From positions 1 to 48,729 of IMG/VR virus record IMGVR_UViG_3300045921_000054: a stretch of 48,729 bases of DNA. One strand, given 5' to 3'. The stretch is from a virus. Numbering within the stretch: the stretch's first letter is position 1; the number at the start of each line of letters is the position of its first letter. This document shows, one piece after another, positions 1,450-47,705 of this stretch. A program made the translations under genes and the position numbers. The notes beneath the pieces were generated by a model. That model was not told where the DNA came from. It saw nothing but the letters and a program-made list of their open reading frames with translations, and did no database searches.

Positions 1450-1457
1450 ATAAATAG
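1450..1457 (-). promoter_or_regulatory. CTATTTAT motif, putative late promoter for the reductase gene
   Basis: Exact CTATTTAT on the coding strand, between the helicase stop and the reductase start. It lies 45 bases before the first ATG, farther than most sites in the set. It is followed by TAGTCC rather than the more common A. Confidence 0.5.
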
Positions 1458-1493
1458 TGTCTTAAAATTTTGTAAAACTAGTTTAGTAGATTT

Positions 1494-2876
1494 CTACCCC
1501 AAATCATCATATTCTTCTTCAGAGTAGATGTTTGTTTGGTGAGCTTTCCACTTATCGTGTAACATTTTCTTTACTTCACTTTCCCCAGCCTTCATTTGTT
1601 TCTTTAGAAGAGAGCCTTTCGGTGAATTTTCGTCATAAATTTCAATCAAACCTTTAGTGAAGTTAATTTCGCATGGCATAGTAATACCATCTTGACCAAA
1701 TCGATTCTTGATAAGATGTGCTCTACCAGTATTTGCAACTTTATCTTCCAACTTACGACTAACTGACATAATAAGATCAGCGGTCATAATTTTAGCATAT
1801 GATTCGGCTACTTTATCTGCTTCAATAATATCGTCATTCAAACTTGAACGTTGACTTTGAGATGCTGTCCAACCTGGAATATCTAACTCACCAAGCATTC
1901 CTCGTATATCTTCATAAGTTATACCCAAATCTTGATAACGAGAATCCCCACGTTCTGTCGGTCGCATCAAGTCTGCATAATCAATGATGATAAGATCAGG
2001 TTTCATTCCAACATTAATACGTCTTTGTATATCTGCCATTAACGTATTTGTGTTGATTGTACGAACAGGATAATACTTGATCGCAAGATCACCCTTAATT
2101 TGTTGGATCGCCTGTTCTACTACCGATTTATTTAATCGAATATTCTTTGGTTCAATTCCAGTTAATAAAGTGTCGTACCGAAGACCCACATAATTTTGAT
2201 TTAACTCAAACGAATAATGTACAACTCGTTTACCAGCTTTTATAGCTGCCAATCCAATACGACATAAGAACCAACTCTTACCGATGCCAGATGGTGCAAT
2301 AATAACACCAAGTTCTCCCCCTGCAAGTCCACCATCAGTAAGTCCATCAACAACATCCCAACCAGTTGGAAGCGTATTACGTGCAGAATTAGCCAGTCTG
2401 TCGTCCAAATCTATTTTCCAATCGTGACCAAAATCATGCTCTTGTCCAACCATCATAGCATGGCTAATCTCTGATTTAATTTTATCAAAGTCACCACGTT
2501 TTAACAAATCAGCAGATTTTAGAATAGCTGCTTTGAGAGCTTGATTTTTGCAAAAATCTAAAAATTCGTCTTTAACATATGTTAAATCTGAACCTTCAGA
2601 TTCAAAAGCTTCTTTAAGAGAAGCTATAACTTGCTTTTTAAAAGCGTCATCACTTTCTTTTGAAAGTTCTGCTTTAAATACAGCAAGAGATGGAACTTCT
2701 CTATAACTTCCGTAATACCAAAGAGTTTTATCAACAATCCACTGATGCGCCTCTGCATCAAAAAACTTAGAATCGATGATGTCGTGTGTTTGATCTAAAA
2801 ACTTCTTATCATTAGTTAAAACGTAAATAGTTTTTGCTTGAAATGCCGTACCAAACTTCTGTAGTGTATCGATCAT
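1494..2876 (-). CDS. DnaB/gp41-like replicative DNA helicase
   Basis: Hexameric 5'-3' helicase that unwinds the phage fork on the lagging strand. At 460 aa it is close to T4 gp41. The N-terminal 150 residues are helical and match the primase-interaction half. The RecA-like motor follows: Walker A APSGIGKS at 194-201, the glutamate-bearing YSFELN near 221-226, Walker B LIIIDYADL at 295-303 with Asp299, and TASQSQR near 337-343. It ends in acidic residues (EEEYDD). It sits between the small membrane ORF and the reductase in the replication block. No strong Shine-Dalgarno is seen before its ATG, so translation may be coupled to the upstream ORF, whose stop lies 4 bases before this start. Confidence 0.9.
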   Translation of the reverse strand: MIDTLQKFGTAFQAKTIYVLTNDKKFLDQTHDIIDSKFFDAEAHQWIVDKTLWYYGSYREVPSLAVFKAELSKESDDAFKKQVIASLKEAFESEGSDLTYVKDEFLDFCKNQALKAAILKSADLLKRGDFDKIKSEISHAMMVGQEHDFGHDWKIDLDDRLANSARNTLPTGWDVVDGLTDGGLAGGELGVIIAPSGIGKSWFLCRIGLAAIKAGKRVVHYSFELNQNYVGLRYDTLLTGIEPKNIRLNKSVVEQAIQQIKGDLAIKYYPVRTINTNTLMADIQRRINVGMKPDLIIIDYADLMRPTERGDSRYQDLGITYEDIRGMLGELDIPGWTASQSQRSSLNDDIIEADKVAESYAKIMTADLIMSVSRKLEDKVANTGRAHLIKNRFGQDGITMPCEINFTKGLIEIYDENSPKGSLLKKQMKAGESEVKKMLHDKWKAHQTNIYSEEEYDDLG

Positions 2877-2880
2877 ATTA

Positions 2881-3003
2881 TCAATATTTTATAACAAAGT
2901 GTATGATTACAAATCCTAAAAATAAAATCCAAAAAAATAATACAAAAAAACCCGCCAATACCCACGGCCCTAAATTTTTGCATATCTGTTTAAGGGTGTC
3001 CAT
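2881..3003 (-). CDS. Small single-span membrane protein, unknown function
   Basis: A 40-residue reading frame starts at ATG 3003 inside the last codons of the exonuclease gene in another frame and ends four bases before the helicase start. A short polar N-terminus (MDTLKQICKN) is followed by one long hydrophobic stretch rich in Phe, Leu, Val, Ile and Trp, with Lys-Tyr at the end. This is a plausible inner-membrane peptide. The ribosome site is weak (GGA about ten bases upstream). It accounts for the only gap between exonuclease and helicase. No family was recognised, and it could still be a chance hydrophobic frame. Confidence 0.5.
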   Translation of the reverse strand: MDTLKQICKNLGPWVLAGFFVLFFWILFLGFVIIHFVIKY

Positions 3004-4022
3004 GTTTTAAAAATCCAATCGTCAAGGTTACCAAATGATCCTAACAATTTATGAGCATACAGTTCTTTTGTCAACCCCATCTTATTGACTGTGGGGAAAT
3101 CATTATCAATCTGCTCAAGTAATTTCATTTTAATGTTAGATGAAAAATCTAAAGTTTTCAAACACATTAATTCTTTATTACGAAGAATAATATCTTTATT
3201 GTCTACGATTTTCTTGAACAAGCTTGCTGGCTTTTTTTGAGTAGAAAGTTGAGTTTCTGCTATGTTAAAAATTTGTTCAAAATCGGCTTCTGTAGATTCT
3301 TTAAGCATTGAAAAATGCTTAAGAAGAGTTTTTTCAGCAACACCTTTAATCCCATCAATAGAGTCTGACTTATCGCCAACCATAGCACGATATATTAAAA
3401 AGTTTACTGGATGAAAGCTATATTCTTCTAATACTTGATCAACTGAATATGTTTTCTTTTTTATAGGGTTGTAAACTTTTACATTATCGTTTACTAGCTG
3501 CAAAAAATCTTTGTCAGTAGACATAATATAAACTTTCCCACCGCGTTCTTGTACTAAATTTGTAACATACGCAATGGTATCATCTGCTTCAATATGATCC
3601 GGCGCTAATATAGTAACTGGTAAATTACTTAGTATTTCTAGCAAAAGAAACATTTGCCGTTTCATACTTTGCTGTTCATCTTCGATTGTATTAAAATTGT
3701 ATGTTCTGTTCAGTCGCGTCATTGATTTGCGGTTGTCTTTATAGTTTGCAAATATTTGACGTCGTTTTTGGCTTCCACCCCTACCATCAAAAGCAATTAT
3801 TACTCTTGTCGGTCGAATCTGGCGAATAGCCAGACCGACCGACTTAAGAAATCCTACCACACCCCCTATATGATCACCGTCATCATTCATTGTTGGAGTG
3901 CTAGCAAAGCATCGAATATAGGTGTTTAATCCATCTATAACTAATACTTTTCCATCACGTCCAAGAGCTTCAAACTCTTCATTTTTGTCTTGAAGTTCTT
4001 TAAACTTTTGTGCTAAGTCCAT
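2970..4022 (-). CDS. 5'-3' exonuclease / RNase H-like flap nuclease (FEN family)
   Basis: Likely removes RNA primers and flaps during lagging-strand synthesis, as T4 RNase H does. At 350 aa it is somewhat longer than T4 Rnh. Metal-binding acidic clusters appear in order: VLVIDGLN (Asp30), IIAFDGRGG (Asp79), DHIEADDTIAYV, MSTDKDFLQL and then VGDKSDSIDGIKG of the helix-hairpin-helix DNA-binding region. The stretch with many Arg and Lys after Asp79 matches the arch region. The first 20 residues are a charged helix. It starts just after the UvsX-like gene (gap of one base), so the two are probably co-translated. The call is firm at family level; whether it acts mainly as primer-removal nuclease or as a recombination nuclease is inference. 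Confidence 0.88.
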   Translation of the reverse strand: MDLAQKFKELQDKNEEFEALGRDGKVLVIDGLNTYIRCFASTPTMNDDGDHIGGVVGFLKSVGLAIRQIRPTRVIIAFDGRGGSQKRRQIFANYKDNRKSMTRLNRTYNFNTIEDEQQSMKRQMFLLLEILSNLPVTILAPDHIEADDTIAYVTNLVQERGGKVYIMSTDKDFLQLVNDNVKVYNPIKKKTYSVDQVLEEYSFHPVNFLIYRAMVGDKSDSIDGIKGVAEKTLLKHFSMLKESTEADFEQIFNIAETQLSTQKKPASLFKKIVDNKDIILRNKELMCLKTLDFSSNIKMKLLEQIDNDFPTVNKMGLTKELYAHKLLGSFGNLDDWIFKTWTPLNRYAKI

Positions 4023-6115: not shown

Positions 6116-6969
6116 GGGGCATTTCTCTTAACGTTATTTTTTATGATTTGAGAAGTTTTTGTCATACCACCCCAAACTTTTTTGTCTTCTCTCGCAGGGT
6201 GTGGTATATCACGTTCAAATTTATTTCTTATATTATGTGATGGCACACCCACGGGTATTTCATATTTACGTAAATTTGGTAATGTCATATCTTCTTCTAA
6301 TTGCTTACGACGATAATGACTTAAAAACTTTATAGCTGACTTCCGTGCTGGGTGTTCTTTATCATATGATAATGCAGTACGAACTAAAATATTATTGCCT
6401 GTTTCTGGGTTTTTTATACGTTGATCTAGTCCCTGCATTACTATTTTTCTATCAACTGTTGGGCGAAGTTCGTGTGATACTTGATGACCGTGGAATAATA
6501 TGTTTGGATATTTTTTACCAAGTTGGTTGAACGCTTGAATATTCTTGGTAGAATCATCATACATAACCACGTTTTTATATTGGCCTGTTTTTGCTTTCTT
6601 TTCAACATATTCTGTTTTTTTCGTTGGATTTGAGCTTCCAACAGGAACAATCTTAACTCCATTTTTAATACCTATTTTTTGTAAAAATTTAGCTACAGGT
6701 TTAGCCGATCCTCTGGCGGTAACAATTGAAACATCAGCACCATGCTTTATTGCAGATTTTAAACGTTTAACATAACCAGGTAATTCTTCAGGATGTATTA
6801 ATTCATCAAATTCTGAATAATCAAACTGGTCATTTGGGTCTGGCTTATACACTGCGTATTCTGCCGGGGTGAGCATAAACTCACCCCGTTTCGGGTTAGA
6901 AACTTTAATTCTAGACTTGGTTCTAGCCAACGTATCATCAAAGTCAAAAATAAACAGTGTTTTTTTCAT
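6112..6969 (-). CDS. HAD-superfamily phosphatase
   Basis: 285 aa. The N-terminal half is a HAD phosphatase: motif I FIFDFDDTLA with the DxDxT nucleophile near residues 9-13, motif II SIVTARG near 82, a lysine-rich stretch near 117-125 and motif III VVMYDDS near 137. Substrate is unknown; a 3'-phosphatase like the T4 Pnkp C-domain or a nucleotidase are both possible. No P-loop kinase domain is present, so it is not a full polynucleotide kinase. The C-terminal 110 residues form a separate basic region containing ILVRTALSYDKEHPARKSA, whose role I do not recognise. The start overlaps the stop of the upstream gene by one base (TAATG), so the two are translationally coupled. Confidence 0.78.
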   Translation of the reverse strand: MKKTLFIFDFDDTLARTKSRIKVSNPKRGEFMLTPAEYAVYKPDPNDQFDYSEFDELIHPEELPGYVKRLKSAIKHGADVSIVTARGSAKPVAKFLQKIGIKNGVKIVPVGSSNPTKKTEYVEKKAKTGQYKNVVMYDDSTKNIQAFNQLGKKYPNILFHGHQVSHELRPTVDRKIVMQGLDQRIKNPETGNNILVRTALSYDKEHPARKSAIKFLSHYRRKQLEEDMTLPNLRKYEIPVGVPSHNIRNKFERDIPHPAREDKKVWGGMTKTSQIIKNNVKRNAP

Positions 6970-7394
6970 TAAGAATCTCTATAAGCAGATTCAAACTCAC
7001 TTACTTTTATTATTTCTTTTAGTTCTGTCTGTATTTTCTTGAGTTTTGAATAGGCAGTTACAAGAATAGTATTCTTGTAATCATCCCATTTTACTTTATA
7101 TGATTTATCAAACTTACCATTATTTAGTTCAGTAATAAGTAAGTTTAATGCATTAATTGTATACAAGGTATTACTAGATTTTTTACGATGCAGAGAAATT
7201 GTTGATTCAGGTACAAATAAAGGTGTATCTCTAACCTCTACATTATATGTTAGACATAAAGACTTGCCGTCTTCTGTATTTTTAAGTACATAAATCGAAT
7301 CGAAAGAAACCTTGTATGTGTTAATGACTTTTTTAACAGTTTCATTTAGTGTATCTTCTGTACAAAAAGTACACAATAGTTGGGTATGTTTCAT
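6969..7394 (-). CDS. Conserved-looking protein of unknown function
   Basis: 141 aa from ATG 7394. A GTG seven codons upstream opens the same frame, but the ATG is preferred because GGAG lies six bases before it. Mixed alpha/beta composition, no membrane segment, no signal peptide. Notable segments are ICLTYNVEV-like strands (LCLTYNVEV), HRKKSSNTLYTINALN and a lysine-rich C-terminal helix (LKKIQTELKEIIK). The sequence gave an impression of hypothetical proteins of marine T4-like phages, but no function is known to me. It has its own CTATTTAT promoter motif 29 bases before the ATG and is coupled to the HAD gene. Confidence 0.7.
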   Translation of the reverse strand: MKHTQLLCTFCTEDTLNETVKKVINTYKVSFDSIYVLKNTEDGKSLCLTYNVEVRDTPLFVPESTISLHRKKSSNTLYTINALNLLITELNNGKFDKSYKVKWDDYKNTILVTAYSKLKKIQTELKEIIKVSEFESAYRDS

Positions 7395-7423: not shown

Positions 7424-7431
7424 ATAAATAG
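7424..7431 (-). promoter_or_regulatory. CTATTTAT motif, putative late promoter
   Basis: Exact octamer in the gap between the polymerase stop and the 141-aa gene, 29 bases before its preferred ATG. The context is AAACTATTTATTTGG. Confidence 0.6.
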
Positions 7432-16418: not shown

Positions 16419-16673
16419 TTACGCTCTAGGTAATGAGTTTTTCATAGATTCTTGTTCTTGCTTTTTAACTTTTACAAATTCGTTAATATAAAACTCACGT
16501 AACCAAACAGGTAACTTATACAAAGTTTCCCAACTCCAGGCACCATTGCTAAACGTTACCATATTAAATAAAGACATATGAAGTGACTTTTTATAATCTG
16601 ATGTCAGGCCAAAAAAACTTAGGCCCAAGGGCAACCTCCCTATTGCCAACGGCACCACATTTAGGACATTCAA
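16419..16673 (-). CDS. Tail assembly chaperone, C-terminal frame, probably made by ribosomal frameshifting
   Basis: An 84-codon open frame that overlaps the end of the 253-aa gene in the +1 frame. The overlap part is not protein-like, but after the shared Phe-Phe the frame gives a convincing domain: GLTSDYKKSLHMSLF, SWETLYKLPVWLREFYINEF and a Lys/Glu helix, the type of small domain fused to tape-measure chaperones. No good independent start exists: the frame opens at TTG, and the first internal ATG has no ribosome site. The simplest reading is a fusion with the 253-aa protein through a slip at the T7 run. It stops five bases before the tape measure gene, as expected for its dedicated chaperone. 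Confidence 0.7.
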   Translation of the reverse strand: MNVLNVVPLAIGRLPLGLSFFGLTSDYKKSLHMSLFNMVTFSNGAWSWETLYKLPVWLREFYINEFVKVKKQEQESMKNSLPRA

Positions 16674-17378: not shown

Positions 17379-17386
17379 ATAAATAC
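17379..17386 (-). promoter_or_regulatory. GTATTTAT variant of the late promoter motif, before the tail-core operon
   Basis: One base differs from CTATTTAT. It is followed by A as in most sites, and lies 26 bases before the ATG of the 253-aa chaperone, in the four-to-six-gene tail block. Confidence 0.5.
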
Positions 17387-19674: not shown

Positions 19675-19741
19675 ATAACCCTCTTAATTTTTTTAATGTT
19701 TAAAACAATATTATCCTTCTGTTATTTTATCTAGTTCTTGA

Positions 19742-23045: not shown

Positions 23046-23053
23046 ATAAATAG
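23046..23053 (-). promoter_or_regulatory. CTATTTAT motif, putative late promoter for the S74 fibre
   Basis: Exact octamer followed by A, 31 bases before the ATG of the 610-aa fibre, in an 88-base gap. Confidence 0.62.
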
Positions 23054-29289: not shown

Positions 29290-29297
29290 ATAAATAG
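29290..29297 (-). promoter_or_regulatory. CTATTTAT motif, putative late promoter for the 1254-aa fibre
   Basis: Exact octamer followed by A, four bases after the stop codon of the 274-aa gene and 27 bases before the fibre ATG. Confidence 0.62.
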
Positions 29298-30323: not shown

Positions 30324-30360
30324 TTAATAAATTTTGTATAGCGGGGAAAATCCTATATAA

Positions 30361-31260: not shown

Positions 31261-31284
31261 ATCAGCATAATTGTGTTAGATAGT

Positions 31285-35301: not shown

Positions 35302-35645
35302 TATGGAGCACCTACATTACTTTCAGTAACTCCAGGGTCAACTAGAATTTTGCCTTCTACAATACGGTACACTTCATCTGGATTTGGAGCAATGTTTGTA
35401 ACGATAATATCGTACAAATATTCTGGCTTAACTAGTAATCCAGTTTGATATGGTAATAGAGTGACGGTTATTCTTGAATTTGGGATATCTTTTTCAATTA
35501 TAAAATTAGTTATTGCTGGTTTTTTATAAGATTCCTTTATTGACCCGGAAAATTCCCAATTAACAAGATCTACTCCTGAACCAGAAAATGTCATAGTAGT
35601 TCTAAAAGTAGAATATTGATTTACGTTAAAATTTAAATCTGCCAT
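35301..35645 (-). CDS. Small Ig-like fibre connector (BppU N-domain-like)
   Basis: 114 aa. Beta-rich: FNVNQYSTFRTTMTFSG, VDLVNWEFSGSIKES, SRITVTLLPYQTG, YLYDIIVTNIAPN, then YRIVEGKILVDPGVT. This is the layout of small phage proteins and domains (BppU N-terminal type) that join receptor-binding proteins to the baseplate. It has its own promoter motif 28 bases before the ATG and a TAATG overlap with the 1338-aa fibre. So connector and fibre are probably made together, and it may be the fibre's adaptor. Family membership is by pattern only. Confidence 0.62.
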   Translation of the reverse strand: MADLNFNVNQYSTFRTTMTFSGSGVDLVNWEFSGSIKESYKKPAITNFIIEKDIPNSRITVTLLPYQTGLLVKPEYLYDIIVTNIAPNPDEVYRIVEGKILVDPGVTESNVGAP

Positions 35646-35673
35646 TCCTAGTCTCTATTTTAGAGTATCAGTT

Positions 35674-35681
35674 ATAAATAG
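35674..35681 (-). promoter_or_regulatory. CTATTTAT motif, putative late promoter for the connector/fibre pair
   Basis: Exact octamer followed by A, six bases after the 259-aa stop and 28 bases before the 114-aa ATG. Confidence 0.62.
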
Positions 35682-35687
35682 TGTAGA

Positions 35688-36467
35688 TTACAATCTAATA
35701 ACAACTGTTTGTGATGGATTATTGATAGAACCAACCGTAATCGGGGTACTTCCAGCAGTATTTACTGTGATAAATCTTCTTACTGGTGGCAATGTTTCAC
35801 CTATTCTTGGTGAATTGACAGCAGTACCAACCGCACCTCCAATAATATCAATTATATTACCAGACGATTCTTCCATTGGAAAATATCTGGCTAAATTAGC
35901 AGAGTATCTATTAGCAACTACTGTAGGATTTTCACCACCGAGTAATTCATCAACAGCTGAATTATTCAAAGAAGTTGTAAAATGTGCCAAATGAGCCAAT
36001 TCTCCATCTAAAAATCTATTGGCATTTAAATCACTGCGTCCACCTATTTGTAAATTTGATAATGTAAATGTGGGTCCAAAAGATCCTCCACTTTGAATGG
36101 TATTAGATCGTGATAATACAATATGTTCTACTAACCCACTAGTCCTACGTACAATAACAGGAGTCCACAACCCAACCCTTTCTGAAGCGGTTGGTGTAGT
36201 ACCACCACCACCAGAAGATTGAGGTCCATCACCGTCACTATCTAAAATAAAGACACGCCAATCATTTGTATTACCAGAAGGAGCAGTAAACAAATTAAGG
36301 CTATTTGGTGATGCAAAAACTCCACCTGACATAAAATATGAGGGGGTAGTACCACTATAACTAATATTTTTTACCCAGATTAACGTGGTAAAATCACCAC
36401 TAAAATCAAAATCCGAAACAGTGAAATTAAATCTATGTTGTGAAGCCCTAACAAATCGTCGTGCCAT
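35688..36467 (-). CDS. LamG/concanavalin A-like virion adhesin
   Basis: 259 aa. LamG-type pattern: FTTLIWVKNISYSG early, WTPVIVRRTSGLVEHIVLS in the middle, then LDGELAHLAHFTTSLNNSAV and ELLGG, which in LamG proteins mark the last strands. Asp and Asn turns could bind calcium. The C-terminal 27 residues (ITVNTAGSTPITVGSINN) recall the beta signature at the termini of the other lectin-like proteins. Starts directly after the 1768-aa fibre (gap of one base), so probably attached to that fibre. Confidence 0.68.
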   Translation of the reverse strand: MARRFVRASQHRFNFTVSDFDFSGDFTTLIWVKNISYSGTTPSYFMSGGVFASPNSLNLFTAPSGNTNDWRVFILDSDGDGPQSSGGGGTTPTASERVGLWTPVIVRRTSGLVEHIVLSRSNTIQSGGSFGPTFTLSNLQIGGRSDLNANRFLDGELAHLAHFTTSLNNSAVDELLGGENPTVVANRYSANLARYFPMEESSGNIIDIIGGAVGTAVNSPRIGETLPPVRRFITVNTAGSTPITVGSINNPSQTVVIRL

Positions 36468-36468
36468 T

Positions 36469-39400
36469 TTAATATCTCCTTACTATTTGCATTTGTTCTA
36501 ACCAGTTACTTGTATTAGTTCCTGGGCTAAATCCACTTAATCTAGCTCGTAATTGCCAATTAGAACGTTGATCCACTGAAGAAGATACTTGTTCAGTACC
36601 ACCATTGACTAAAAACACACTTGCTGACCAGTTAGGTTCAATAATAGCGTTGTTATCTGTACTCTTAAATATTTCGTTAAATACCAAGTAATCTGTTACA
36701 ACAGTACCATTATAATTAGTGTACAAATACAATATGCCGTGAACTAGATGTCGATATGCTGATGATCCAGCTGGATTTGGGTTTGCAGAAATATAAACAT
36801 CATACGCCACTGGACCACCATATGAAGAGCCTGTTCCATAATTTAAAAGTTGAGTAACATTCAATCCGGTGTCTATAATAGAGTGAGTTGTACTTGCATT
36901 AATATTACTGATAGATGTTCTGTAGAATATATTACCGAGTGATGCGCTTGGCTTTAGTGATGAAACATCTAGATTTTCAAGACTTTTTACATAACTTGCT
37001 GTTAGAGAATAACTAGAACTGAGAGAACTTGACGCCCAGCTTGCAGATTCGGCATTAGTAGCAAATGGCACGTCTCCTCCAATAGTACCACCAGGTGCAA
37101 GAATAAAGTCAGATGCATAGACTGCGCCTGATACAAATACAGAGCCAGTTACATTGACTCTACTGGAAGATGTACTACCTACGGTTAAGTTTCTTGCTAC
37201 AAAGATGTCACGTGGTCGATTTGAACCTGAGGCGCCTATATCATTGGTGTTATCTGTTGAGAATAAAATATTAGAGTTAACTCTTCCAGTAAATGTAATG
37301 GTATTACTAGTTAAATCACCCAATATGGTATTACCATAGACCTTTACATTTCTGGTTAAATCTAATCTATCTACTCCAGCTACATACTCCCAAACAACCA
37401 TTGCAGCTGTAGCGTCATACAAACCATAGGTAGTACCAGCCGAATTTAGATAGTAATATATGCGGCGATTTGAATTCTGTAGATTGTATCTGAGTTGAAC
37501 TGCAGATGAATTTCTGATCCAAATATCTTCGCCGGTGGTCGTAATTTCACCTGATGAAAGTATACCACTACCAGTAATTGATCCAAGTGCATGCAGTCTA
37601 CTTCCACTTACTTCAAGTAAACCACCTATTCTAGTGACTCCTTTGATGTAGGCACCATTTGTTGGTATGAGTGAGGCATCTGCATAATCATCCGATACAA
37701 GCAGATTACCAACTCGTATACCTTGAGCAGCACCACCATTAAGCAGTTGAATTCCACCAGGGGCATGAATTTGAGAGTTCGTAAGTCGTAAATTTGAACC
37801 AGTGATAGGACCAGATGCATTGATTGATGCTGGCGTAATGGTTTGACCGTTGATCAAAGACACTACTTGAGCAGAACTGGACACTAAGCCTGTTGGTCTG
37901 TTGATCAAATTATTGAAATTAGAACTGTTTGCCCAAGAAGCACTAATAGCATAACTTGATGATAATGAGCTAGATGCCCAACTTGCAGATTCAGCATTAG
38001 TAGCAAAGGGCACGTCGCCTCCAATAGTGCCACCTGGCGCTAGTATGAAATCCGACGCATAGACTGCACCAGAAACAAATACTGATCCGGTTACATTGAC
38101 TCTACTAGAAGATGTACTGCCTACCGTTAAGTTTCTAGCCAAGAACAAATCACGTGGTCGATTTGCACCTGAAGCACCTATATCATTGGTATTATCTGTT
38201 GAGAATAGGACATTAGAGTTGACTCTTCCAGTAAACGTAATAGTATTACCGATTACATCACCCAATATAGTATTACCATAGACCTTCACATTTCTGGTTA
38301 AATCTAATCTATCTAGTCCGGCCACATATTCCCAAACAACCATTGCAGCTGTAGAATCATACAAACCATAGGTGGTGCCAGCTGAGTTTAGATAGTAATA
38401 AATTCGGCGATTTGAATTTTGCAGATTATACCTGACTTGAACTGCAGATGAATTTCTGACCCAAATATCTTCACTAGTAGAAGTAATATCACCTGATGAA
38501 AGTATACCACTACCAGTAATTGATCCAAGTGCATGCAGTCTACTTCCACTTACTTCAAGTAAACCACCTATTCTGGTGGCTCCTTTGATGTAGGTGCCAT
38601 TTGTTGGTACTAATGAAATGTCTGAATATGCATCTGATACAAGCAGACCACCAACATTTATACCTTGAGCAGCACTACCATTGAAAAGTTGAATATTTCC
38701 CGGTGACTGAATTTGGGAGTTTGAGAGTCGTAGAGTTGAACCGGTAATAGGACCAGATGCATTAATTGATGACGGCGTAATGGTTTGACCGTTGATGAAA
38801 GATACTACTTGAGCAGAACTGGACACTAATCCTGTTGGTCTGTTGATCAAATTGAGAAAGTTTGAACTGTTTGCCCAAGAAGCACTAATGGCATAACTGG
38901 AGCTGAGTGAACTAGATGCCCAACTGGATGACTCAGAATTAGTAGCAAAAGGCACGTCACCACCAATAGTGCCACCTGGCGCTAGTATGAAATCCGACGC
39001 ATAGACTGCACCAGAAACAAATACTGATCCGGTTACATTGACTCTACTAGAAGATGTACTACCTAAAGTTGTATTTGATAATACTCTAGCACTTCCACTT
39101 ACTTCTAGAGAGGAGCTAATTCTAGTGTTACCCTTAATGTAGACACCGTTTGTTGGTACTAATGAACTATCTGTATAATCATTTGATACAAGTAGATTGC
39201 CAACTCGTATACCTTGAGCAGCACCACCATTGAGAAGTGAAATATTTCCCGGTGCATGAATTTGGGAGTTAGTGAGTCTTAGATTTGAGCCAGTGATGTT
39301 ACCCGAGGTATTAATTGATGACGGCGTAATGGTTTGACCATTGATCAAAGACACTACTTGATCTGAACTTGATACAAGTCCAGATGGTACATTGGTTAAA

Positions 39401-41775
39401 TTATTGAAGTTTGAACTATTTGCCCAACTTGAACTATTTGCCCAAGAAGCACTAATCGCATAACTTGATGATAATGAACTTGATGCCCAACTAGATGATT
39501 CAGAATTAGTAGCAAAGGGCACGTCACCGCCAATTGTACCACCTGGCGCTAATATAAAATCTGATGCATAGACTGCACCAGAAACAAATACTGATCCTGT
39601 TACATTGACTCTACTAGAAGATGTACTACCTACAGTTAAATTACTTGAAATAATTGAAGAACCACTAACATTTAATGTATTACCATCAAATGTAAGATTA
39701 GGTTCACCTGTTATTCCATTTGTAGAAGTGGCGGTTAAGACTCGGTTATCAGCACCATTGGTAAATGATGCTACCGGGAGCTGTAAGGAACTAGAAACTA
39801 ATCCATTTGGTTTGTTTGTTAAACCTAAGAAATTTGAACTGTTTGCCCAAGAAGCACTAATGGCATAGCTGGAACTAAATGAACTTGATGCCCAACTAGA
39901 TGATTCAGAATTAGTAGCAAATGGTACATCTCCGCCAATAGTACCACCAGGTGCTAGTATGAAATCCGACGCATATACTGCGCCTGATATGAACATTGAT
40001 CCTGTTACATTGACTCTACTAGAAGATGTATTACCTACGGTTAGGTTGTTTAAAACAATTGAAGAACCACTAACATTTAATGTATTACCATCAAATGTAA
40101 GATTAGGTTCACCTGTTATTCCATTTGTAGAAGTAGCGGTCAAAACTCGGTTATCAACTCCATTGGTAAATGATGCTACTGGAAGTTGTAAAGAACTAGA
40201 AACTAATCCATTTGGTTTGTTTGTTAAACCTAAGAAATTTGAACTGTTTGCCCAAGAAGCACTAATCGCATAACTTGATGACAATGAGCTAGATGCCCAA
40301 CTAGATGATTGTGAGTTGGTGGCAAATGGCACATCTCCACCAATAGTACCACCAGGTGCTAGTATGAAATCCGACGCATATACAGGCCCAGATACTATTA
40401 AAGAGCTACTAATAATTGCACCATTACTTGCTGTTAAAGCAGATGGTTTTATAATTTGTCCATTTATTCCTGCTATTATTTGAGCAGAACTACTTACAAG
40501 TCCTACTGGTTTGTCTACTATAGAAACCCAGTTAACATTTCCTCCTCCACCACCACTTCCAGAACCAATTCTTCTTTTAACAATTGAACCTGATTCATCT
40601 CTATCTGCTATCCACAGACCGTCTAATGTAGAAGGTGAACTTCCAGTTCTAAACCACATATCTCCGTGAAATAATACAGGTGGATCACTAAATAGTGGTA
40701 TAAATGAAATATGTGGTGAGCTTTCTGATGCATTAATAACAAACCCACGTCTATATGACTCTGTTACAGATGAACTATCAAATAAAGGATATATTACTAC
40801 TGATTGAAATGAGACATTTAAATTACTACCGGAAATATTAGATATAGAACCAGAAACTGCAACTTGAAATCCTTGTCTTGGATCACTTGTAAAAACTTGA
40901 TTAGTAAAATCAATTGGAGCTACAGCATAGAAAGAATATGGTTTATCTACTGAAAATGATGCAAATGGATGAAATCTAGCAGTTGCAATGTCAGCAATAG
41001 ACATTGACATTGAAGTAAATCCATTTTGTATTGGAATAGAGTTCCAGTTAGATCCATTAAAATAATGTAGTTTACCGCCATTAACAGGTGGTTGAATTGT
41101 ATTAGAATTTTGTAGCAAACGCATTGTTGGAGCCCATCCATCGGATATCAATGCGTTTATTTGAGCAGGTGTAGCCGGAGTTGCTGAGCTACCACTTACT
41201 AGCTGCCATACTGGATGTGGATTAACAGAAGATGATATGGAAGCAGCATTACCAGGGGGAGTTACAACTTTCCAGAAATATGGGTTTGTATCAGGCGTAG
41301 AATTTACGGTAACAGAGTTTCCTATTACAACTACTGAAGTAGTTGACAAGTATGGTTCAAAAAAAGGTAAAAGTGGATTTGTCTGAGTAAGTACATCTCC
41401 AACTGTTCTAACTAAAATTGGATATGGAACAGATGATGTAATATTAAATGTTTCTGTAATACTTACACTGCTAAAATCTGTACCAAATGGCAGTGCTTGT
41501 TTAAATACTGTTAGTGTATATACTGGTCCAACATCATTCCAAGTAGAACCGTTATCAGTAGAATATTGTACTTGTAAGTTAGCAATTGCATCTACTGATA
41601 AGGCTTCAGATGTCCAATCTATTGACAAAGAAAAATCAATACTGGCCGTATATGAACCTATTAATGCATTACCGGTACCAACTGCATTTACAGGACCGAC
41701 CCAAGTATCAGATGCATTATTTGTTTGTGAAACAATAGTAGGATTTGATGACCACGTAGTATCGATAAAACTCAT
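36469..41775 (-). CDS. Giant modular tail fibre (1768 aa)
   Basis: The largest gene in the window. The N-terminal 450 residues are beta-sandwich-like, non-repetitive and unique (TTWSSNPTIVSQTNNASD; LQVQYSTDNGSTWNDVG). From about 450 to 1610 it is built from repeated modules: YASDFILAPGGTIGGDVPF occurs six times, with ASWANSSNFLGLTNKPNGL, NLTVGSTSSSRVNVTGS and RDLFLARN units between. Some modules are shared with the 610-aa S74 fibre. The last 150 residues (LNVTQLLNYGTGSSYGG and beyond) form a separate head without an S74 chaperone. Its start overlaps the stop of the 860-aa gene by one base. Confidence 0.8.
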   Translation of the reverse strand: MSFIDTTWSSNPTIVSQTNNASDTWVGPVNAVGTGNALIGSYTASIDFSLSIDWTSEALSVDAIANLQVQYSTDNGSTWNDVGPVYTLTVFKQALPFGTDFSSVSITETFNITSSVPYPILVRTVGDVLTQTNPLLPFFEPYLSTTSVVVIGNSVTVNSTPDTNPYFWKVVTPPGNAASISSSVNPHPVWQLVSGSSATPATPAQINALISDGWAPTMRLLQNSNTIQPPVNGGKLHYFNGSNWNSIPIQNGFTSMSMSIADIATARFHPFASFSVDKPYSFYAVAPIDFTNQVFTSDPRQGFQVAVSGSISNISGSNLNVSFQSVVIYPLFDSSSVTESYRRGFVINASESSPHISFIPLFSDPPVLFHGDMWFRTGSSPSTLDGLWIADRDESGSIVKRRIGSGSGGGGGNVNWVSIVDKPVGLVSSSAQIIAGINGQIIKPSALTASNGAIISSSLIVSGPVYASDFILAPGGTIGGDVPFATNSQSSSWASSSLSSSYAISASWANSSNFLGLTNKPNGLVSSSLQLPVASFTNGVDNRVLTATSTNGITGEPNLTFDGNTLNVSGSSIVLNNLTVGNTSSSRVNVTGSMFISGAVYASDFILAPGGTIGGDVPFATNSESSSWASSSFSSSYAISASWANSSNFLGLTNKPNGLVSSSLQLPVASFTNGADNRVLTATSTNGITGEPNLTFDGNTLNVSGSSIISSNLTVGSTSSSRVNVTGSVFVSGAVYASDFILAPGGTIGGDVPFATNSESSSWASSSLSSSYAISASWANSSSWANSSNFNNLTNVPSGLVSSSDQVVSLINGQTITPSSINTSGNITGSNLRLTNSQIHAPGNISLLNGGAAQGIRVGNLLVSNDYTDSSLVPTNGVYIKGNTRISSSLEVSGSARVLSNTTLGSTSSSRVNVTGSVFVSGAVYASDFILAPGGTIGGDVPFATNSESSSWASSSLSSSYAISASWANSSNFLNLINRPTGLVSSSAQVVSFINGQTITPSSINASGPITGSTLRLSNSQIQSPGNIQLFNGSAAQGINVGGLLVSDAYSDISLVPTNGTYIKGATRIGGLLEVSGSRLHALGSITGSGILSSGDITSTSEDIWVRNSSAVQVRYNLQNSNRRIYYYLNSAGTTYGLYDSTAAMVVWEYVAGLDRLDLTRNVKVYGNTILGDVIGNTITFTGRVNSNVLFSTDNTNDIGASGANRPRDLFLARNLTVGSTSSSRVNVTGSVFVSGAVYASDFILAPGGTIGGDVPFATNAESASWASSSLSSSYAISASWANSSNFNNLINRPTGLVSSSAQVVSLINGQTITPASINASGPITGSNLRLTNSQIHAPGGIQLLNGGAAQGIRVGNLLVSDDYADASLIPTNGAYIKGVTRIGGLLEVSGSRLHALGSITGSGILSSGEITTTGEDIWIRNSSAVQLRYNLQNSNRRIYYYLNSAGTTYGLYDATAAMVVWEYVAGVDRLDLTRNVKVYGNTILGDLTSNTITFTGRVNSNILFSTDNTNDIGASGSNRPRDIFVARNLTVGSTSSSRVNVTGSVFVSGAVYASDFILAPGGTIGGDVPFATNAESASWASSSLSSSYSLTASYVKSLENLDVSSLKPSASLGNIFYRTSISNINASTTHSIIDTGLNVTQLLNYGTGSSYGGPVAYDVYISANPNPAGSSAYRHLVHGILYLYTNYNGTVVTDYLVFNEIFKSTDNNAIIEPNWSASVFLVNGGTEQVSSSVDQRSNWQLRARLSGFSPGTNTSNWLEQMQIVRRY
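37052..40385 (-). repeat. Six copies of a fibre module inside the 1768-aa gene
   Basis: Near-identical DNA encoding YASDFILAPGGTIGGDVPF lies near 37052, 38000, 38937, 39505, 39909 and 40316. Longer blocks at 37580-37865 and 38531-38815 match 22660-22935 of the S74 fibre gene. Confidence 0.85.
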
Positions 41776-44357
41776 TACACGCTCTCAGTTGTTATAACAA
41801 CAAAAAATGTAAGATACAAAGTATTTCCAACTCGATTTTCTGGTACTAATACTGGATATTTTACTAAAGGAGCAATTGGTAATGCTCCATTTGTTGATAC
41901 AAGTATATTTTGTTCTCTTACCAAAGATTGACCAGCCGCCGGGTTGGGAGTTTGATAACCTGTCCAGTCTGCTATACATCGAATATTATAATTCAATCTA
42001 TACAGACTTGACGCCGGTAATGATAACTCTTGTGCAACAAAAGTAACATCAGCATATATTATACCATTATTAATATGTATTCCACTCGGAACGTTTATAC
42101 TTGCAGAACTGACTAATGTTAAAGATTGTGTAATAAATGCATCGTAAATAGAAGAAGTTATAGAAGCATTAATTGGTGATTGTTGTATGGGATTTTCTGT
42201 ACCACGTGTGTATACACCAAACCTTGCTATTTGAGAATTCCATTCTCCTGCACTAACTCCATACTGACCTTTAGAGTCCTCAACATCTACAATATTACCG
42301 TATAATCGATCTACATAACGATCTGTAGTAGTACGTACTTTAACAGCTTCTGAACCACTAATAGAATTATTATCAATAATGGTACCCCTTACCAATAAAA
42401 TAAATTCTCCTGTAAGGGAATCGGTGTATCCTATTAATTTATCACTAATACCTATTTGAACTTGATTAGTATCTTTATCTGATACCACTATAAATGGAGT
42501 TTGTGGATCACCAACAGTTGGAGTTTCATTGTCTAAAACACCTAAAGTAAAAGATGATCCAGTTCGTTGACCAGATATTCCGCTAAGTAATGTTGGTTCA
42601 TAGATACCAGTGGATATTTTTGCTACAGCTCCACCATCTCTTGACACAACTTCAATTGTCCCTTGAAGTTTGTGGTCATCACCTTTGAATACAACATTTC
42701 CACCGTCAAAATATACCGGTTTACTTTCAATGGTAATGGGAACAAAATTATTATTGTGATCGTATAATTCTGCGTAAAATACTAAGTTTTCAAATCTACG
42801 ACCGATAATGGGAACAAATGATTCGGCTCTATTTGGAGTAAAACCACTTTCTACCGCAAGTTCAATAGAAATATCAGAAATATACCAATTAGCATTATAA
42901 CTGACAAAATATGGTTTAATATCTGCACTGAGTGGTGCAGTAAACTCTGCCTCTACATCTAAAAATTGTTGTGTTTTAGCACCAGAAGGTGATATAAGTT
43001 CTATTATTTGAGTACCAATTCCTTCTGGTGATAAAAATCCGTCACCAACAATTCTTACATCAAATTTAGAATCATACTCACTACTATTCTTTACTGCTAC
43101 AGCATTAAAACGTATCTTATACGTACCATCTTTTACAACCGGCAAACTACCTGATATTGTAAAATATGCTCTTGGAGTAGAAGAATCTACAGTATTCAGT
43201 ATAGAATCAGTAATGGCTACAGAATCCATTAACCATGCAGTAGATCCTTCTACAACTACATTTGATGGAGTAAATGCATAAATTTTAGGAATATTGGAGA
43301 TTTCTGTAATACTTCCAGTTTCCCAATAACCTGTAAAAATATTAAATCTATCAAATTTTCCTCTGTCAATATACCCACGACCTGTAAAAGTACAATTTTT
43401 GTAACGTAACAATGACGTATTTTCAATTGAAAAATCATCAATCAATTGAGGTTGAGTGAGTGTATCAATGCTTCGTACAAATACTTTTACTCTAGCAATA
43501 TCACCAGATACAGTCTCTAAATTGTTAAGTGATATGTCTGCATATGAACGAGTAAGTAATGTTGGTAAAAATGCTGGTCGTGGATTATACGTTGTAGTAA
43601 AAGAACTTGCTATAAGAGAAGTAACTTGACCAGAACTTCCTGTATATTGTGGTTGAACTTCTATTGTAGTGTCATTTATTACACGTGTAATAGTAGGTCT
43701 GTAATTGTATCCAAATATTGTAATAGTTGCTCCTTCCATACTAGATGAAAAATATGGAGCAGTGGACTTTAATGTGTAAGAACCCAACGAATCTGATAAT
43801 AGTCTACGATTATTTGGAATACCAAAAATCTGTGGACCTATACTACTGGTTGTTACTTTCGTTTGTGGTTCAAAATATGGCGTTAAAACTTCTTGAACTG
43901 TTATAGTAGGTTTTTTATACAGTCTAATTTTGTTTGTGTTAAGTGCAGTAGGTATAATTGTTACATCTCGTGTCCACTTAACATTATATTTTCCAACCCA
44001 CTCATCAGGAACACTATTACCATTTAAATCACTACGAGCTTCACCCAAAATAGTGATAGAACCAATTCCTGCGGGTGTCTTATTGTAAATCTCAACTACA
44101 ACAAGTCTAGACAATCCCTCAATATATTTTGCAATAGGCTGAACAAATATTGGGTTGCCTTCACTATCCAATATTTCAATTAATACTTCTGTTGTAGGCT
44201 TTAAATATTCCGACCCTTCTATTAGAAAAGAATTTTTCCCACCAGAAAATATGTTTGGAAATTCACTTATTCTAAAATAATCTGACGTTGGGGAAGAATC
44301 AGTTATCCAAGTTCGATACCTATTAAGATTTCTTAAGGTAACTTCTTTAACAGTCAT
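41775..44357 (-). CDS. Large virion structural protein, probable baseplate-to-fibre connector
   Basis: 860 aa, no enzyme motif, beta-rich with many short Ig-like segments: FLIEGSEYLKPTTEVLIEIL, VVVEIYNKTPAGIGSITIL, TITVQEVLTPYFEPQTKV, TITIFGYNYRPTITRVI. Such chains occur just upstream of fibre genes in large myoviruses and may be the rigid connector of fibres to the baseplate. It contains no Ser/Ala shaft repeats, unlike the next gene. It is the first gene after the tube terminator and has its own promoter motif 29 bases upstream. A tail-fibre hinge or baseplate wedge are the alternatives. Confidence 0.6.
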   Translation of the reverse strand: MTVKEVTLRNLNRYRTWITDSSPTSDYFRISEFPNIFSGGKNSFLIEGSEYLKPTTEVLIEILDSEGNPIFVQPIAKYIEGLSRLVVVEIYNKTPAGIGSITILGEARSDLNGNSVPDEWVGKYNVKWTRDVTIIPTALNTNKIRLYKKPTITVQEVLTPYFEPQTKVTTSSIGPQIFGIPNNRRLLSDSLGSYTLKSTAPYFSSSMEGATITIFGYNYRPTITRVINDTTIEVQPQYTGSSGQVTSLIASSFTTTYNPRPAFLPTLLTRSYADISLNNLETVSGDIARVKVFVRSIDTLTQPQLIDDFSIENTSLLRYKNCTFTGRGYIDRGKFDRFNIFTGYWETGSITEISNIPKIYAFTPSNVVVEGSTAWLMDSVAITDSILNTVDSSTPRAYFTISGSLPVVKDGTYKIRFNAVAVKNSSEYDSKFDVRIVGDGFLSPEGIGTQIIELISPSGAKTQQFLDVEAEFTAPLSADIKPYFVSYNANWYISDISIELAVESGFTPNRAESFVPIIGRRFENLVFYAELYDHNNNFVPITIESKPVYFDGGNVVFKGDDHKLQGTIEVVSRDGGAVAKISTGIYEPTLLSGISGQRTGSSFTLGVLDNETPTVGDPQTPFIVVSDKDTNQVQIGISDKLIGYTDSLTGEFILLVRGTIIDNNSISGSEAVKVRTTTDRYVDRLYGNIVDVEDSKGQYGVSAGEWNSQIARFGVYTRGTENPIQQSPINASITSSIYDAFITQSLTLVSSASINVPSGIHINNGIIYADVTFVAQELSLPASSLYRLNYNIRCIADWTGYQTPNPAAGQSLVREQNILVSTNGALPIAPLVKYPVLVPENRVGNTLYLTFFVVITTESV

Positions 44358-44386: not shown

Positions 44387-44394
44387 ATAAATAG
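44387..44394 (-). promoter_or_regulatory. CTATTTAT motif, putative late promoter for the fibre cassette
   Basis: Exact octamer followed by A, 29 bases before the 860-aa ATG and 26 bases after the terminator. The order terminator-promoter-gene supports its role. Confidence 0.68.
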
Positions 44395-44514: not shown

Positions 44515-45003
44515 TTAATAATTGAGAATTGCGTAATCGTAACGCAACGTAATTTGTACGTTCATTAAGTTTGCTTCAGCAAAATTAAAACCGCCGAAAC
44601 TTGTGTTTTCAATAAATGCACCTTTGAGAATCCACTCTTCAGTTTTTTCACCTACCGGTCCAAGAGCATTTAAGATAATATCTTTTTTGTACATATCGGC
44701 ATATCCATCACGACCTGTAACAGATTCGTGATGTAAACGTACCCATTCCATTACCGCTTGTGTACCAGAAGGAGCAATTGGATCATATAGAGTAACCTGA
44801 ATTGGTTGCCACTCTGAACGGCCCTTTACATAACGTACAACGTTAATATGAGGAATAGATATTGATCCTTGATTAAGGCTTGGACGACCTGCTGCACTTA
44901 CTATATAAGTGGGTAGACCATCAATATACATTATGAACCGATTGGTTGTTTTTGGTTCAAATGAATTAAAGAAAATTTCCTGTTCGTTGACAATATTTGC
45001 CAT
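44515..45003 (-). CDS. Tail tube protein, gp19-like
   Basis: 162 aa; T4 gp19 has 163. Forms the hexameric rings of the inner tail tube. Signature segments: NEQEIFFNSFEPKTTNRFIM, HINVVRYVKGRSEWQPIQVT, EWVRLHHESVTGRDGYADMY and FAEANLMNVQITLRYDYAIL, all typical of T4-type tube proteins. It follows the sheath gene, has GGAG nine bases before ATG, its own promoter motif and a strong terminator, as expected for a very abundant protein. Confidence 0.92.
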   Translation of the reverse strand: MANIVNEQEIFFNSFEPKTTNRFIMYIDGLPTYIVSAAGRPSLNQGSISIPHINVVRYVKGRSEWQPIQVTLYDPIAPSGTQAVMEWVRLHHESVTGRDGYADMYKKDIILNALGPVGEKTEEWILKGAFIENTSFGGFNFAEANLMNVQITLRYDYAILNY

Positions 45004-45042: not shown

Positions 45043-45050
45043 ATAAATAG
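45043..45050 (-). promoter_or_regulatory. CTATTTAT motif, putative late promoter for the tail tube
   Basis: Exact octamer followed by A between sheath and tube genes, 39 bases before the tube ATG. Confidence 0.6.
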
Positions 45051-45061: not shown

Positions 45062-47398
45062 TTATTCTTCAAATGTTGCACCCGTCGGCAAGACATTGAA
45101 TTCAAGTGAGATGAATTCTGCTGACCGTGCAGGTTGTAAGTAGATTTTACCAACTAAAATGTTTCGATCAATCAAATCATTTGTGTTTTCAACATCTGAC
45201 ATTTGAACACGAAACGCAAACAATCCCAATCTCTCTTGAACATTTGCCAAATATGGATTGACAATTGACAAGAATCTTTGGCGAGTTGCTTCGACATTCT
45301 GTTCAAATACCAAGAATCGAGCAGTAGATGCAATGAACTTCTTAACGGTAATTAACAAACGACGTACATTGATACGATCCAATGCAGATGCTCTTTGTTG
45401 TAAGGTTTTTTGACCCCACACCGCAATACCCTGTGAAGGGAATTGAGCAATCGGATTTACTCTGTTTTCATAGAGAACATCTCGGTTACCTTGGTCAAGA
45501 TGCTTACGAACTTGACGAGCTTCTGTTAATCCACCACGATTTAAACCTGCTGGAGCAAACCACTCTGCTGCTATACGATCATTAAATGCGTATACTGCTG
45601 GCATTAATACTGAAGGTGGAACCCATACAATACGATTGGTGTCTGGATCGAGTATCTTGATCCATGGATAATATACACCAGCGTAATTTGTATCTAATCC
45701 GTTAACTACAGAAGTTACAGCGGTAACGGTAGCATTGAGTCCAGCAGCATCCATAATGTAGAACGCATCTGCACGAGACTCAACCATATCGATTGCTAAT
45801 TGAGCAACATATGGGTGTTGTTCATACAATACACCTGGGAGTACTAATAAATTGAAATCCCATGCATCAGGATTACTTAGAATATCAAGTGCAAGCTTGT
45901 ATGCACGTGAACCGGCAGTGGTAGAAGTTGATAAGTCAAATCCAAACAAGTTTGTAGAAGTTATGCTTGAACCAATACCCTTTTCTACTGCTGGATTAAA
46001 TCCATCAAATCCACCTTGGAATGGAACTGTAAACTTACGAAGTGCGGTAGCAGTGGTAACGTTTACATCAGATAGATCGTTGACCGCTAAATCTTCTAAT
46101 AAGTCGAATCCATTATCACCAACACCTGTTACAAGAGTATTACCATTTGCATCTACAGAACCAGAAGGTGTTGGATTTACATATGCCAAACTAGTAGTGT
46201 CACTAAAATTAAAACCGTAATAAGTACGGTTATTTGCGACGGCAGGTCCGCCACCATTTGGAACAACATAACGAGTTGTTACGTAAGATGGTGCTGGAAC
46301 GTTAAGTGCAAATACTGGAGCAGCTAAAGCTGCGAAACCATATGGAAGTGCATCAATTGGAAGCGCTTCATAGTTTTCATCCATTTCTACGTAGATATAA
46401 CGAGAATTATTTTCATAATCGCCGTCAAAATATAAGTCATTATTTTCATCAATCATAGTACGTGCAGTACCAATGCGACGACCAATGAAATTTGCATCTG
46501 TTGGATCAAGAGTTAAGTTATCAAACTGCTCAAGAACTTCTAACTTAGAATCTGTGTCAGAAAATCTACGAACAATAACAGAAAACGTTCCGTATCTATC
46601 AGGAAGAGTTGCTGGTTTGATAGATGCTATAGATACTTTAACATCAGTGTTTGAAGCTGTTCCATCACTTAATGTATGGAATCGGAATAGGTTATACTTT
46701 GTTCCTGCATAATCTTGAGAACGAATCCACGGAGTACGTGCATTTCGATATGTTCCATAAATTGATCCAGAGAAGTTTAACTGTGTTGGAGCATCTATTA
46801 ATGTTACAGAACCAGATCCCGCAAGTGCTCCTGATACTAAATTAGCTGCACCAGGGAATTGTAAATAAACAAACCCATCTTCACCACCCTTTGGTGAAGT
46901 ACCAAGTACCTTTGTAATATAATTTGTATTAGTTGGATCAAGGCTAACGCTTGTAAAGGTTTCAAGACCAGTAGATCCAGACAATACTAATGTAAATTGA
47001 GCAGCATTACCTGCTGCAGAACCAGTAACAAGCGATACACCGCCTACTGTTGGGTGAATAACAGCTGCAACATATTGTCCACCAGAACCACTAACCCGTA
47101 AAATTCTGCTACGTGCAGTTGCAGAATTGTAACCATCGAGACCTAGTATACGAACAACCGTTGCTTGAGAAGCTTCACGTAAATAGCTCTTAACAGCAAG
47201 GGGAACATAGGATTCGCCAGTGCTATCACCAAATATTGCAGTAAAACTTTCTAAAGAACGTACAGAAGTTGGTCGAAATGCTGGACCTTTTGTAGTTGGA
47301 CCAACAAATACCCCACCAATTTCAGCTACTCCTTGACCAAGAAAAGACAGGTCGTTTTCTCTTGTGAATACGCCTGGGGAAATAAAACGTTCAGCCAT
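45062..47398 (-). CDS. Tail sheath protein, gp18-like
   Basis: 778 aa, longer than T4 gp18 (659). The N-terminus ERFISPGVFTRENDLSF, GEIGG-type strand (VAEIGGVFVGPTTKGPA) and the C-terminal core LLITVKKFIASTARFLVFEQ, TRQRFLSIVNPYLANVQERL, FRVQMSDVENTNDLID, SAEFISLEFNVLPTG are the conserved contractile-sheath domains that also bind the tube. The extra length is in the outer, variable middle region. GGAG seven bases before ATG. An 18-bp perfect palindrome lies directly before the ribosome site. It drives contraction during infection. Confidence 0.93.
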   Translation of the reverse strand: MAERFISPGVFTRENDLSFLGQGVAEIGGVFVGPTTKGPAFRPTSVRSLESFTAIFGDSTGESYVPLAVKSYLREASQATVVRILGLDGYNSATARSRILRVSGSGGQYVAAVIHPTVGGVSLVTGSAAGNAAQFTLVLSGSTGLETFTSVSLDPTNTNYITKVLGTSPKGGEDGFVYLQFPGAANLVSGALAGSGSVTLIDAPTQLNFSGSIYGTYRNARTPWIRSQDYAGTKYNLFRFHTLSDGTASNTDVKVSIASIKPATLPDRYGTFSVIVRRFSDTDSKLEVLEQFDNLTLDPTDANFIGRRIGTARTMIDENNDLYFDGDYENNSRYIYVEMDENYEALPIDALPYGFAALAAPVFALNVPAPSYVTTRYVVPNGGGPAVANNRTYYGFNFSDTTSLAYVNPTPSGSVDANGNTLVTGVGDNGFDLLEDLAVNDLSDVNVTTATALRKFTVPFQGGFDGFNPAVEKGIGSSITSTNLFGFDLSTSTTAGSRAYKLALDILSNPDAWDFNLLVLPGVLYEQHPYVAQLAIDMVESRADAFYIMDAAGLNATVTAVTSVVNGLDTNYAGVYYPWIKILDPDTNRIVWVPPSVLMPAVYAFNDRIAAEWFAPAGLNRGGLTEARQVRKHLDQGNRDVLYENRVNPIAQFPSQGIAVWGQKTLQQRASALDRINVRRLLITVKKFIASTARFLVFEQNVEATRQRFLSIVNPYLANVQERLGLFAFRVQMSDVENTNDLIDRNILVGKIYLQPARSAEFISLEFNVLPTGATFEE

Positions 47399-47410
47399 TA
47401 ATAATCTCCA

Positions 47411-47428
47411 TTACAAAATATTTTGTAA
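47411..47428 (-). other. 18-bp perfect palindrome before the sheath gene
   Basis: TTACAAAATATTTTGTAA exactly fills the space between the stop codon of the 82-aa gene and the sheath ribosome site. It could be a protein-binding site or a weak RNA hairpin that affects sheath translation. Confidence 0.55.
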
Positions 47429-47677
47429 CTAATTTTCTGGTATAAACTCAGCAGTTTCTAGATTGATAGAACCTTTTCCATATTTCTCTGTTATAGTTTG
47501 AACAACAAGTTGTCTTTCTGATTCCAGAGAGTTTATCTGCGTGTTCACCCTATCTAATGCTAGAGAAATCTGAGCTTTTTGATAATGTAACTCACCCAAT
47601 TCACGTATCAGTTCTTCAGTTTTTCTCTGCAATTCTATGATACGATCTAGGTCTTCTTTTGCAACCTGCTTAGCCAT
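47429..47677 (-). CDS. Small coiled-coil protein between sheath and gp15-like genes
   Basis: 82 aa. Heptad-rich helix from residue 8 to 62 (LDRIIELQRKTEELIREL, then ISLALDRVNTQINSLESE), then EKYGKGSINLETAEFIP. Paralogue of the 86-aa protein at 19414-19674: same length, same helix and same terminal tail. In T4 the terminase genes lie between gp15 and gp18; here only this gene does. It may be a virion or assembly factor; function unknown. A promoter motif lies 20 bases upstream. Confidence 0.75.
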   Translation of the reverse strand: MAKQVAKEDLDRIIELQRKTEELIRELGELHYQKAQISLALDRVNTQINSLESERQLVVQTITEKYGKGSINLETAEFIPEN

Positions 47678-47697
47678 AAATACCTCATTGTCTCAAG

Positions 47698-47705
47698 ATA
47701 AATAG
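47698..47705 (-). promoter_or_regulatory. CTATTTAT motif, putative late promoter for the coiled-coil/sheath pair
   Basis: Exact octamer, 20 bases before the ATG of the 82-aa gene and 46 bases after the gp15-like stop. No other such site lies before the sheath gene, so it may serve both. Confidence 0.58.

Follow-up and report, generated by a model that had tools for sequence, protein, structure and literature searches.

A conserved octamer ahead of structural genes as a candidate late promoter element in a large group of T4-related phages

The octamer and its sites in the window

The DNA analyzed, called the window here, is the 48,729-base IMG/VR record IMGVR_UViG_3300045921_000054, an incomplete virus contig in which the minus strand holds nearly all of the genes. 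PHROG and Pfam matches to sheath, tube, baseplate, UvsX-like recombinase, DnaB-like helicase, and SSB proteins identify it as a T4-related contractile-tailed phage. A preliminary description of the window had pointed to an octamer, CTATTTAT, that recurs between genes and had read it as a phage late promoter. We find exactly eight copies, all on the minus strand and all where that description had placed them, and the GTATTTAT variant that it gave for position 17379 is also present. A second GTATTTAT, at 47676, is a mere overlap with a start codon. The sites are listed below, with +1 positions predicted from the register described further on.

1450..1457, minus strand: CTATTTAT, putative -10-like element; predicted +1 near 1445; precedes the B12-dependent ribonucleotide reductase fragment 1-1404
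7424..7431, minus strand: CTATTTAT; predicted +1 near 7419; precedes a 141-aa gene without an annotated function, 6969-7394
17379..17386, minus strand: GTATTTAT variant; predicted +1 near 17374; precedes the T4-type baseplate gene 16591-17352
23046..23053, minus strand: CTATTTAT; predicted +1 near 23041; precedes the tail fibre gene 21182-23014
29290..29297, minus strand: CTATTTAT; predicted +1 near 29285; precedes the tail fibre gene 25498-29262
35674..35681, minus strand: CTATTTAT; predicted +1 near 35669; precedes 35301-35645, then the fibre gene 31285-35301
44387..44394, minus strand: CTATTTAT; predicted +1 near 44382; precedes 41775-44357 (860 aa), then the fibre gene 36469-41775
45043..45050, minus strand: CTATTTAT; predicted +1 near 45038; precedes the gp19-like tail tube gene 44515-45003, the orthologue used in the position test
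45062..47398, minus strand: tail sheath gene, the query for collecting relatives
47698..47705, minus strand: CTATTTAT; predicted +1 near 47693; precedes an 82-aa gene, 47429-47677, then the tail sheath gene

As one site lies ahead of ribonucleotide reductase, not all of the targets are structural. In the reductase fragment, a match to Pfam Intein_splicing that is below the cutoff marks an intein-like splicing domain. Other features of the window were seen in passing. The segment 7441-8808 encodes a 455-aa piece of a family A DNA polymerase; as the annotation of Flavobacterium phage immuto likewise lists family A polymerases of about 441 and 777 aa as separate genes, this suggests that the polymerase of the window phage may be split. 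Several of the large tail-fibre genes within 25498-44357 share SSSYALTASYA-type repeats, which are likely to be recombining modules, and 503 nt amid the tail genes (19675-20177) have no convincing coding-strand gene.

The number of octamers in the window is unremarkable. On both strands 4.8 copies are expected, and at least eight were obtained in 9 of 100 shuffles; the raw count is not significant and was dropped as evidence. It is the placement that departs from chance. None of the eight copies is genic, in agreement with the preliminary description, and all eight are in the coding-strand sense within intergenic DNA, which makes up 3.5% of the window. A gene/intergene count, the check that the description had proposed, gave eight sense and no antisense copies in 1,729 intergenic nt versus an expectation of 0.17, derived from dinucleotide shuffles of the intergenic segments (maximum of 3 in 2,000 shuffles). 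Hence the non-chance feature is the intergenic, coding-sense placement of 8/8 copies, not their near-chance number. CTATTTAT is also the most frequent intergenic octamer of the window, a ranking tempered by the top octamer of any kind in 500 shuffles, which averaged 3.7 copies and reached 8. The 7-mer TATTTAT is less exclusive, with 13 sense copies in the window, nine of which are the listed sites. In the coding sense the window has no copy of the reverse complement of CTATTTAT, and its 1,141 nt of co-directional upstream sequence contain no T4-type TATAAATA versus six TATTTATA. The motif-to-ATG distances reported for the nine sites (45, 29, 31, 27, 28, 29, 39, and 20, with 26 for the variant at 17379) are correct if the annotated ATG is taken.

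Conservation of the motif in relatives

The sheath gene query gave a pool of 80 sheath-bearing contigs, the window counted among them; RecA was tried as a route to close relatives and yielded only two loci. Two relatives are cultured, Microcystis phage Mel-JY01 and Flavobacterium phage immuto, which have the gene order recombinase, exonuclease, helicase in common; LR756508 is an uncultured relative. Shine-Dalgarno leaders are found at a fraction of 0.47 of window genes versus 0.06 in a control stretch, and the corresponding fractions are 0.36 for Mel-JY01 and 0.05 for immuto. As the window resembles Mel-JY01 and not immuto in this respect, its leaders indicate that the host of the phage is probably not a member of the Bacteroidota.

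The core [A/C]TATTTATA lies in a single orientation ahead of orthologous structural genes in about 80 tail-sheath relatives, in immuto, and in Mel-JY01. In the pool of 80, ATATTTAT was found 289 times upstream of genes versus 72 times in about 25-fold more genic sequence; the counts of TATTTATA and TATAAATA were 237 and 8. In the co-directional upstream sequence of the relatives the counts were 209 for TATTTATA versus 7 for TATAAATA. The motif lies upstream of 70 of 79 tail tube orthologues (median distance to the start codon of 31 nt, interquartile range 30-33) and 72 of 82 sheath orthologues. For the baseplate gene the fraction was 39 of 66, and in 17 of those 39 the first base is G, as at position 17379. 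The octamer persists at orthologues after clustering at 90% and at 70% protein identity, immuto and Mel-JY01 included, and at 70% the flanks vary while the octamer remains (small sets of 6-17 sequences). This conserved position across divergent relatives bears out the proposal that the motif is linked to the downstream gene. Beyond the octamer there is little conservation apart from T-richness, and no conserved -35 element is apparent. What stands of the octamer as first written is the conserved core TATTTAT(A), whereas its first base varies: the window has C, most relatives have A, and many contigs on the immuto side again have C (75 of 98 distinct sites in one set).

Genes marked by the motif in immuto include those for terminase, portal, sheath, tube, and baseplate. 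The motif is enriched in the late regions of immuto (23/86 versus 13/142, p 6e-4) and in the structural regions of Mel-JY01 (p 0.02), these regions having been delimited by us from the annotation. The motif was absent from 50 kb around the sheath gene of LR756508 and from the first 50 kb of RM378, and 7 kb of the nearest relative of the window (L001) contained a single exact intergenic copy. No description of this motif as a phage promoter was found in the literature searched, which was mostly without subscription journals.

Predicted start site and comparison with known promoters

Among sites at least 22 nt from the start codon, four sets have a purine 11 nt past the first T of TATTTAT at frequencies of 0.84-0.91, compared with background values of 0.53-0.62. 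The purine excess at this offset has p values of 2.6e-18, 7e-12, 2e-3, and 2e-3 in the four sets, and the Y-R step maximum falls at the same offset in the largest set; the window sites alone are too few for the test (p 0.07). In a control on T4-type TATAAATA sites (n = 15 only) the purine peak was at offset 13, which is the known +1. The peak thus gives a predicted start site, with +1 about 11 nt past the first T and usually a purine. The Bacteroidota-type sets have almost as many purines at offset 12 as at offset 11, which leaves a one-base uncertainty in the register. Start codons also pile up at offset 11, but 96 of the 112 belong to one gene family, and thus the pile-up was treated as supporting the start site and leaderless genes were rejected as a general proof of it. 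At 96 sites (L102, L106, L110, L113, and others) the predicted +1 coincides with the first base of a conserved small gene, MKLDLLKKLI..., which may be translated from a leaderless mRNA.

In the inferred register the clade motif reads T or any base at -13, A or C at -12, T at -11, A at -10, T at -9, -8, and -7, A at -6, T at -5, and A at -4. The T4 late promoter has T at -13, A at -12, T at -11, A at -10, -9, and -8, T at -7, and A at -6. When clade TATATTTA and T4 TATAAATA are set in the same register, the A-type motif is identical to T4 from -13 to -10 and at -7/-6 and differs at -9/-8 alone, where TT replaces AA. The window lineage additionally has C for A at -12. The clade as a whole has an extra T and A at -5/-4, and some of its lineages tolerate or prefer C at -12. 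The octamer had been described as the reverse complement of the T4 core; because the two motifs differ just at -9/-8 in this register, a same-orientation alignment is the more apt. A reversed T4 promoter acting on the other strand was ruled out because orthologous sites follow gene orientation and antisense copies are rare. A palindrome holding both motifs, TATTTATAAATA, was also rejected, having at most two occurrences per site set.

The clade sites resemble the T4 late promoter, which is served by gp55, gp33, and gp45, in having a putative eight-base -10-like element, no apparent -35 element, and a short leader to structural genes. T4-like cyanophages are, like the clade, marine or freshwater T4 relatives with a motif ahead of structural genes, but their late promoter, NATAAATA in S-PM2 and Syn9 (PMC2984593), keeps AA at -9/-8. 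In flavobacteria the sigma-A -7 element is TAnnTTTG at -12 to -5 (PMC9723704, PMC6847099). The clade motif is like it in its TA plus TTT content and its position near -12 to -5, but lacks the terminal TTTG, its consensus columns being A T A versus T T G in the host.

Candidate sigma protein and the reading of the promoter

The preliminary description had proposed that a gp55-like sigma gene be sought outside the window. None was found in the window itself, which is a fragment, nor was there a sigma match in the longest ATATTTAT-clade contigs, which may be incomplete. The clade does have a candidate, a sigma-region-2-like protein represented by immuto gp118, so that a phage-encoded sigma-like factor would be a further likeness to the T4 late system. 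The gp118 family occurs in at least 600 viral contigs, with homologues of about 40% identity in Mel-JY01 and LR756508. The genome search with PHROG 234 (late sigma) gave immuto gp118 an E value of 0.008. The similarity of PHROG 234 to the family is weak (hmmscan E 0.5, best member 0.026; hhalign E 0.12), the profile similarity being below significance, and none of the sequence tests was significant by itself. Those PHROG families matched by most members are annotated as late sigma and sigma factor, and the LR756508 member matches Sigma70_r2 at residues 70-104, below threshold. An AlphaFold domain model of the candidate has a pLDDT of 86. Most of its top named viral structure matches are sigma-like factors (BFVD probability up to 1.00, E 0.06), and the best TM-score among the PDB matches listed was that to RpoS region 2 (TM 0.49/0.59), all PDB and BFVD E values being above 0.04. 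The full-length model was uninformative against the PDB, and the Mel-JY01 sigma used alone as the query found nothing. The likeness to gp55 (PHROG 234, PDB 7d7c) thus consists of a weak profile match over residues 5-117, helices predicted to resemble region 2, and an equivalent of Tyr97. The candidate is longer, 230-250 aa versus 185 aa for T4 gp55, and has an additional helical domain at its C terminus.

T4 gp55 inserts the bases at -12, -9, and -8 into pockets, with Y97 on -12, N13 and H95 on -9, and T99 on -8 (PMC7892883). Two of these three pocket bases differ between the clade and T4 motifs, and the A/C variation falls on the third. When 163 candidate-family sequences were aligned with 21 gp55 sequences, Y97, which stacks on -12, was invariant in both families (163/163 in the candidate family). 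In contrast, N13 is replaced by T (157/163), H95 by F or Y, and T99 by G, S, or Q; R57 of gp55 is T in most members. The earlier expectation that the sigma factor would differ from gp55 in what it reads therefore finds a counterpart in the predicted -9/-8 contact residues, an argument that depends on the register and on an alignment at the limit of detectability. Sigma residues were also considered as the explanation of A or C at -12. Correlations exist, but they track clades and so are inseparable from descent.

Sigma-bearing loci have 4.0-9.6 sense TATTTAT per kb of upstream sequence versus 0.2-0.3 in genes, and T4-like loci bearing gp55 have 0.04 per kb upstream. LR756508 (L088, L179) has the sigma homologue and no TATTTAT upstream signal in 50 kb. 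The sliding clamp (gp45 family) was found in 2 of 10 non-T4 records, and thus the role of gp45 in the T4 mechanism may not carry over to the clade.

The octamer ahead of structural genes is almost certainly a promoter common to a large T4-related phage group. Its assignment to the late class agrees with its promoter behavior, its mainly structural targets, and its enrichment in the cultured relatives, but not with the ribonucleotide reductase target. Overall we consider it likely that the octamer is the -10-like element of a late promoter read by a phage gp55-like sigma of altered specificity, the identity of that sigma and its base contacts being those predicted from the sequence comparisons above. 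In such a system the host RNA polymerase core would take up the phage-encoded factor, and the polymerase carrying it would open the DNA at [A/C]TATTTATA without a -35 element. Transcription would start about 11 nt past the first T, usually at a purine, giving short leaders. The site would be T4 TATAAATA with TT for AA at -9/-8, and the reading sigma would keep the Tyr contact to -12 and have other residues at the -9/-8 contacts. We infer that the incomplete genome of the window phage encodes such a sigma.

The sites could instead be variants of host primary sigma promoters, built on the Bacteroidota -7 element and needing no phage factor. TATTTATA fits TAHHTTTG at several positions if +1 is one base further downstream, and some relatives have Bacteroidota-type leaders. 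However, the final G and middle T of the host TTTG are missing from the motif, and TAHHTTTG is scarce upstream in immuto, with no enrichment at late genes. There is also no apparent -35 element, and sigma-70 sites (TTGACA, 16-18 nt, TATAAT) are not in excess in the 40-48.7 kb part of the window (30 versus 38 expected), where none was reported to end at an octamer on the coding strand. Moreover, the motif is common to phages with and without Shine-Dalgarno leaders, one of the former infecting Microcystis, and these hosts are expected to differ in primary sigma, which favors a phage-encoded reader; we regard reading by the host sigma as quite improbable. A phage promoter with another reader (a different phage sigma, a polymerase encoded by the phage, or a host sigma that it has appropriated) or of the middle class has a slightly better chance, though still a small one. 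It would accommodate the failure to find the sigma gene in the window fragment or the longest close contigs, the separate Sigma70_r2 protein carried by RM378, and the site ahead of ribonucleotide reductase. Against it, the motif and the sigma-like gene co-occur in immuto, Mel-JY01, and many contigs, the contact residues differ as the motif predicts, and the motif is enriched at structural genes.

Fixed spacing ahead of start codons and AT-richness would also suit an RNA element (processing site or translation enhancer) or a DNA replication or packaging element that is no promoter at all. Nevertheless, several window sites have a separate Shine-Dalgarno element, GGAGAA, between the motif and the start codon, and Rfam gave no match. 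The purine and Y-R signature at a fixed offset is a start-site hallmark, and the ATG of one conserved gene falls exactly on the predicted +1 in its 96 cases; such an element is very improbable.

If the preferred reading, a late promoter read by a phage sigma, is extended to its origin, there is perhaps an even chance that in this T4-related branch, with hosts from Flavobacterium to Microcystis, late sigma specificity shifted at the flipped-out -9/-8 bases, AA giving way to TT, with A-to-C at -12 at the level of lineages, and that promoter and sigma co-evolved at all three bases flipped by gp55. The evolution of promoter specificity would then be readable from sequence alone. On the preferred reading itself, a base-specificity change in a minimal sigma factor would offer a natural experiment. 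Abundant and almost uncharacterized aquatic T4 relatives would gain a late transcription signal, their late operons would become annotatable, and a highly conserved 'hypothetical protein' would be given a function.

Other upstream elements recur in these phages. TTTCGTATATT(TG), found in many loci (L090-L092, L099-L178, L251-L315) and in Mel-JY01, resembles the flavobacterial -7 element and may be an early promoter. In immuto (L090, L091) an upstream element around TATATTTAGGTATCAATAATT is repeated in about 10 copies.
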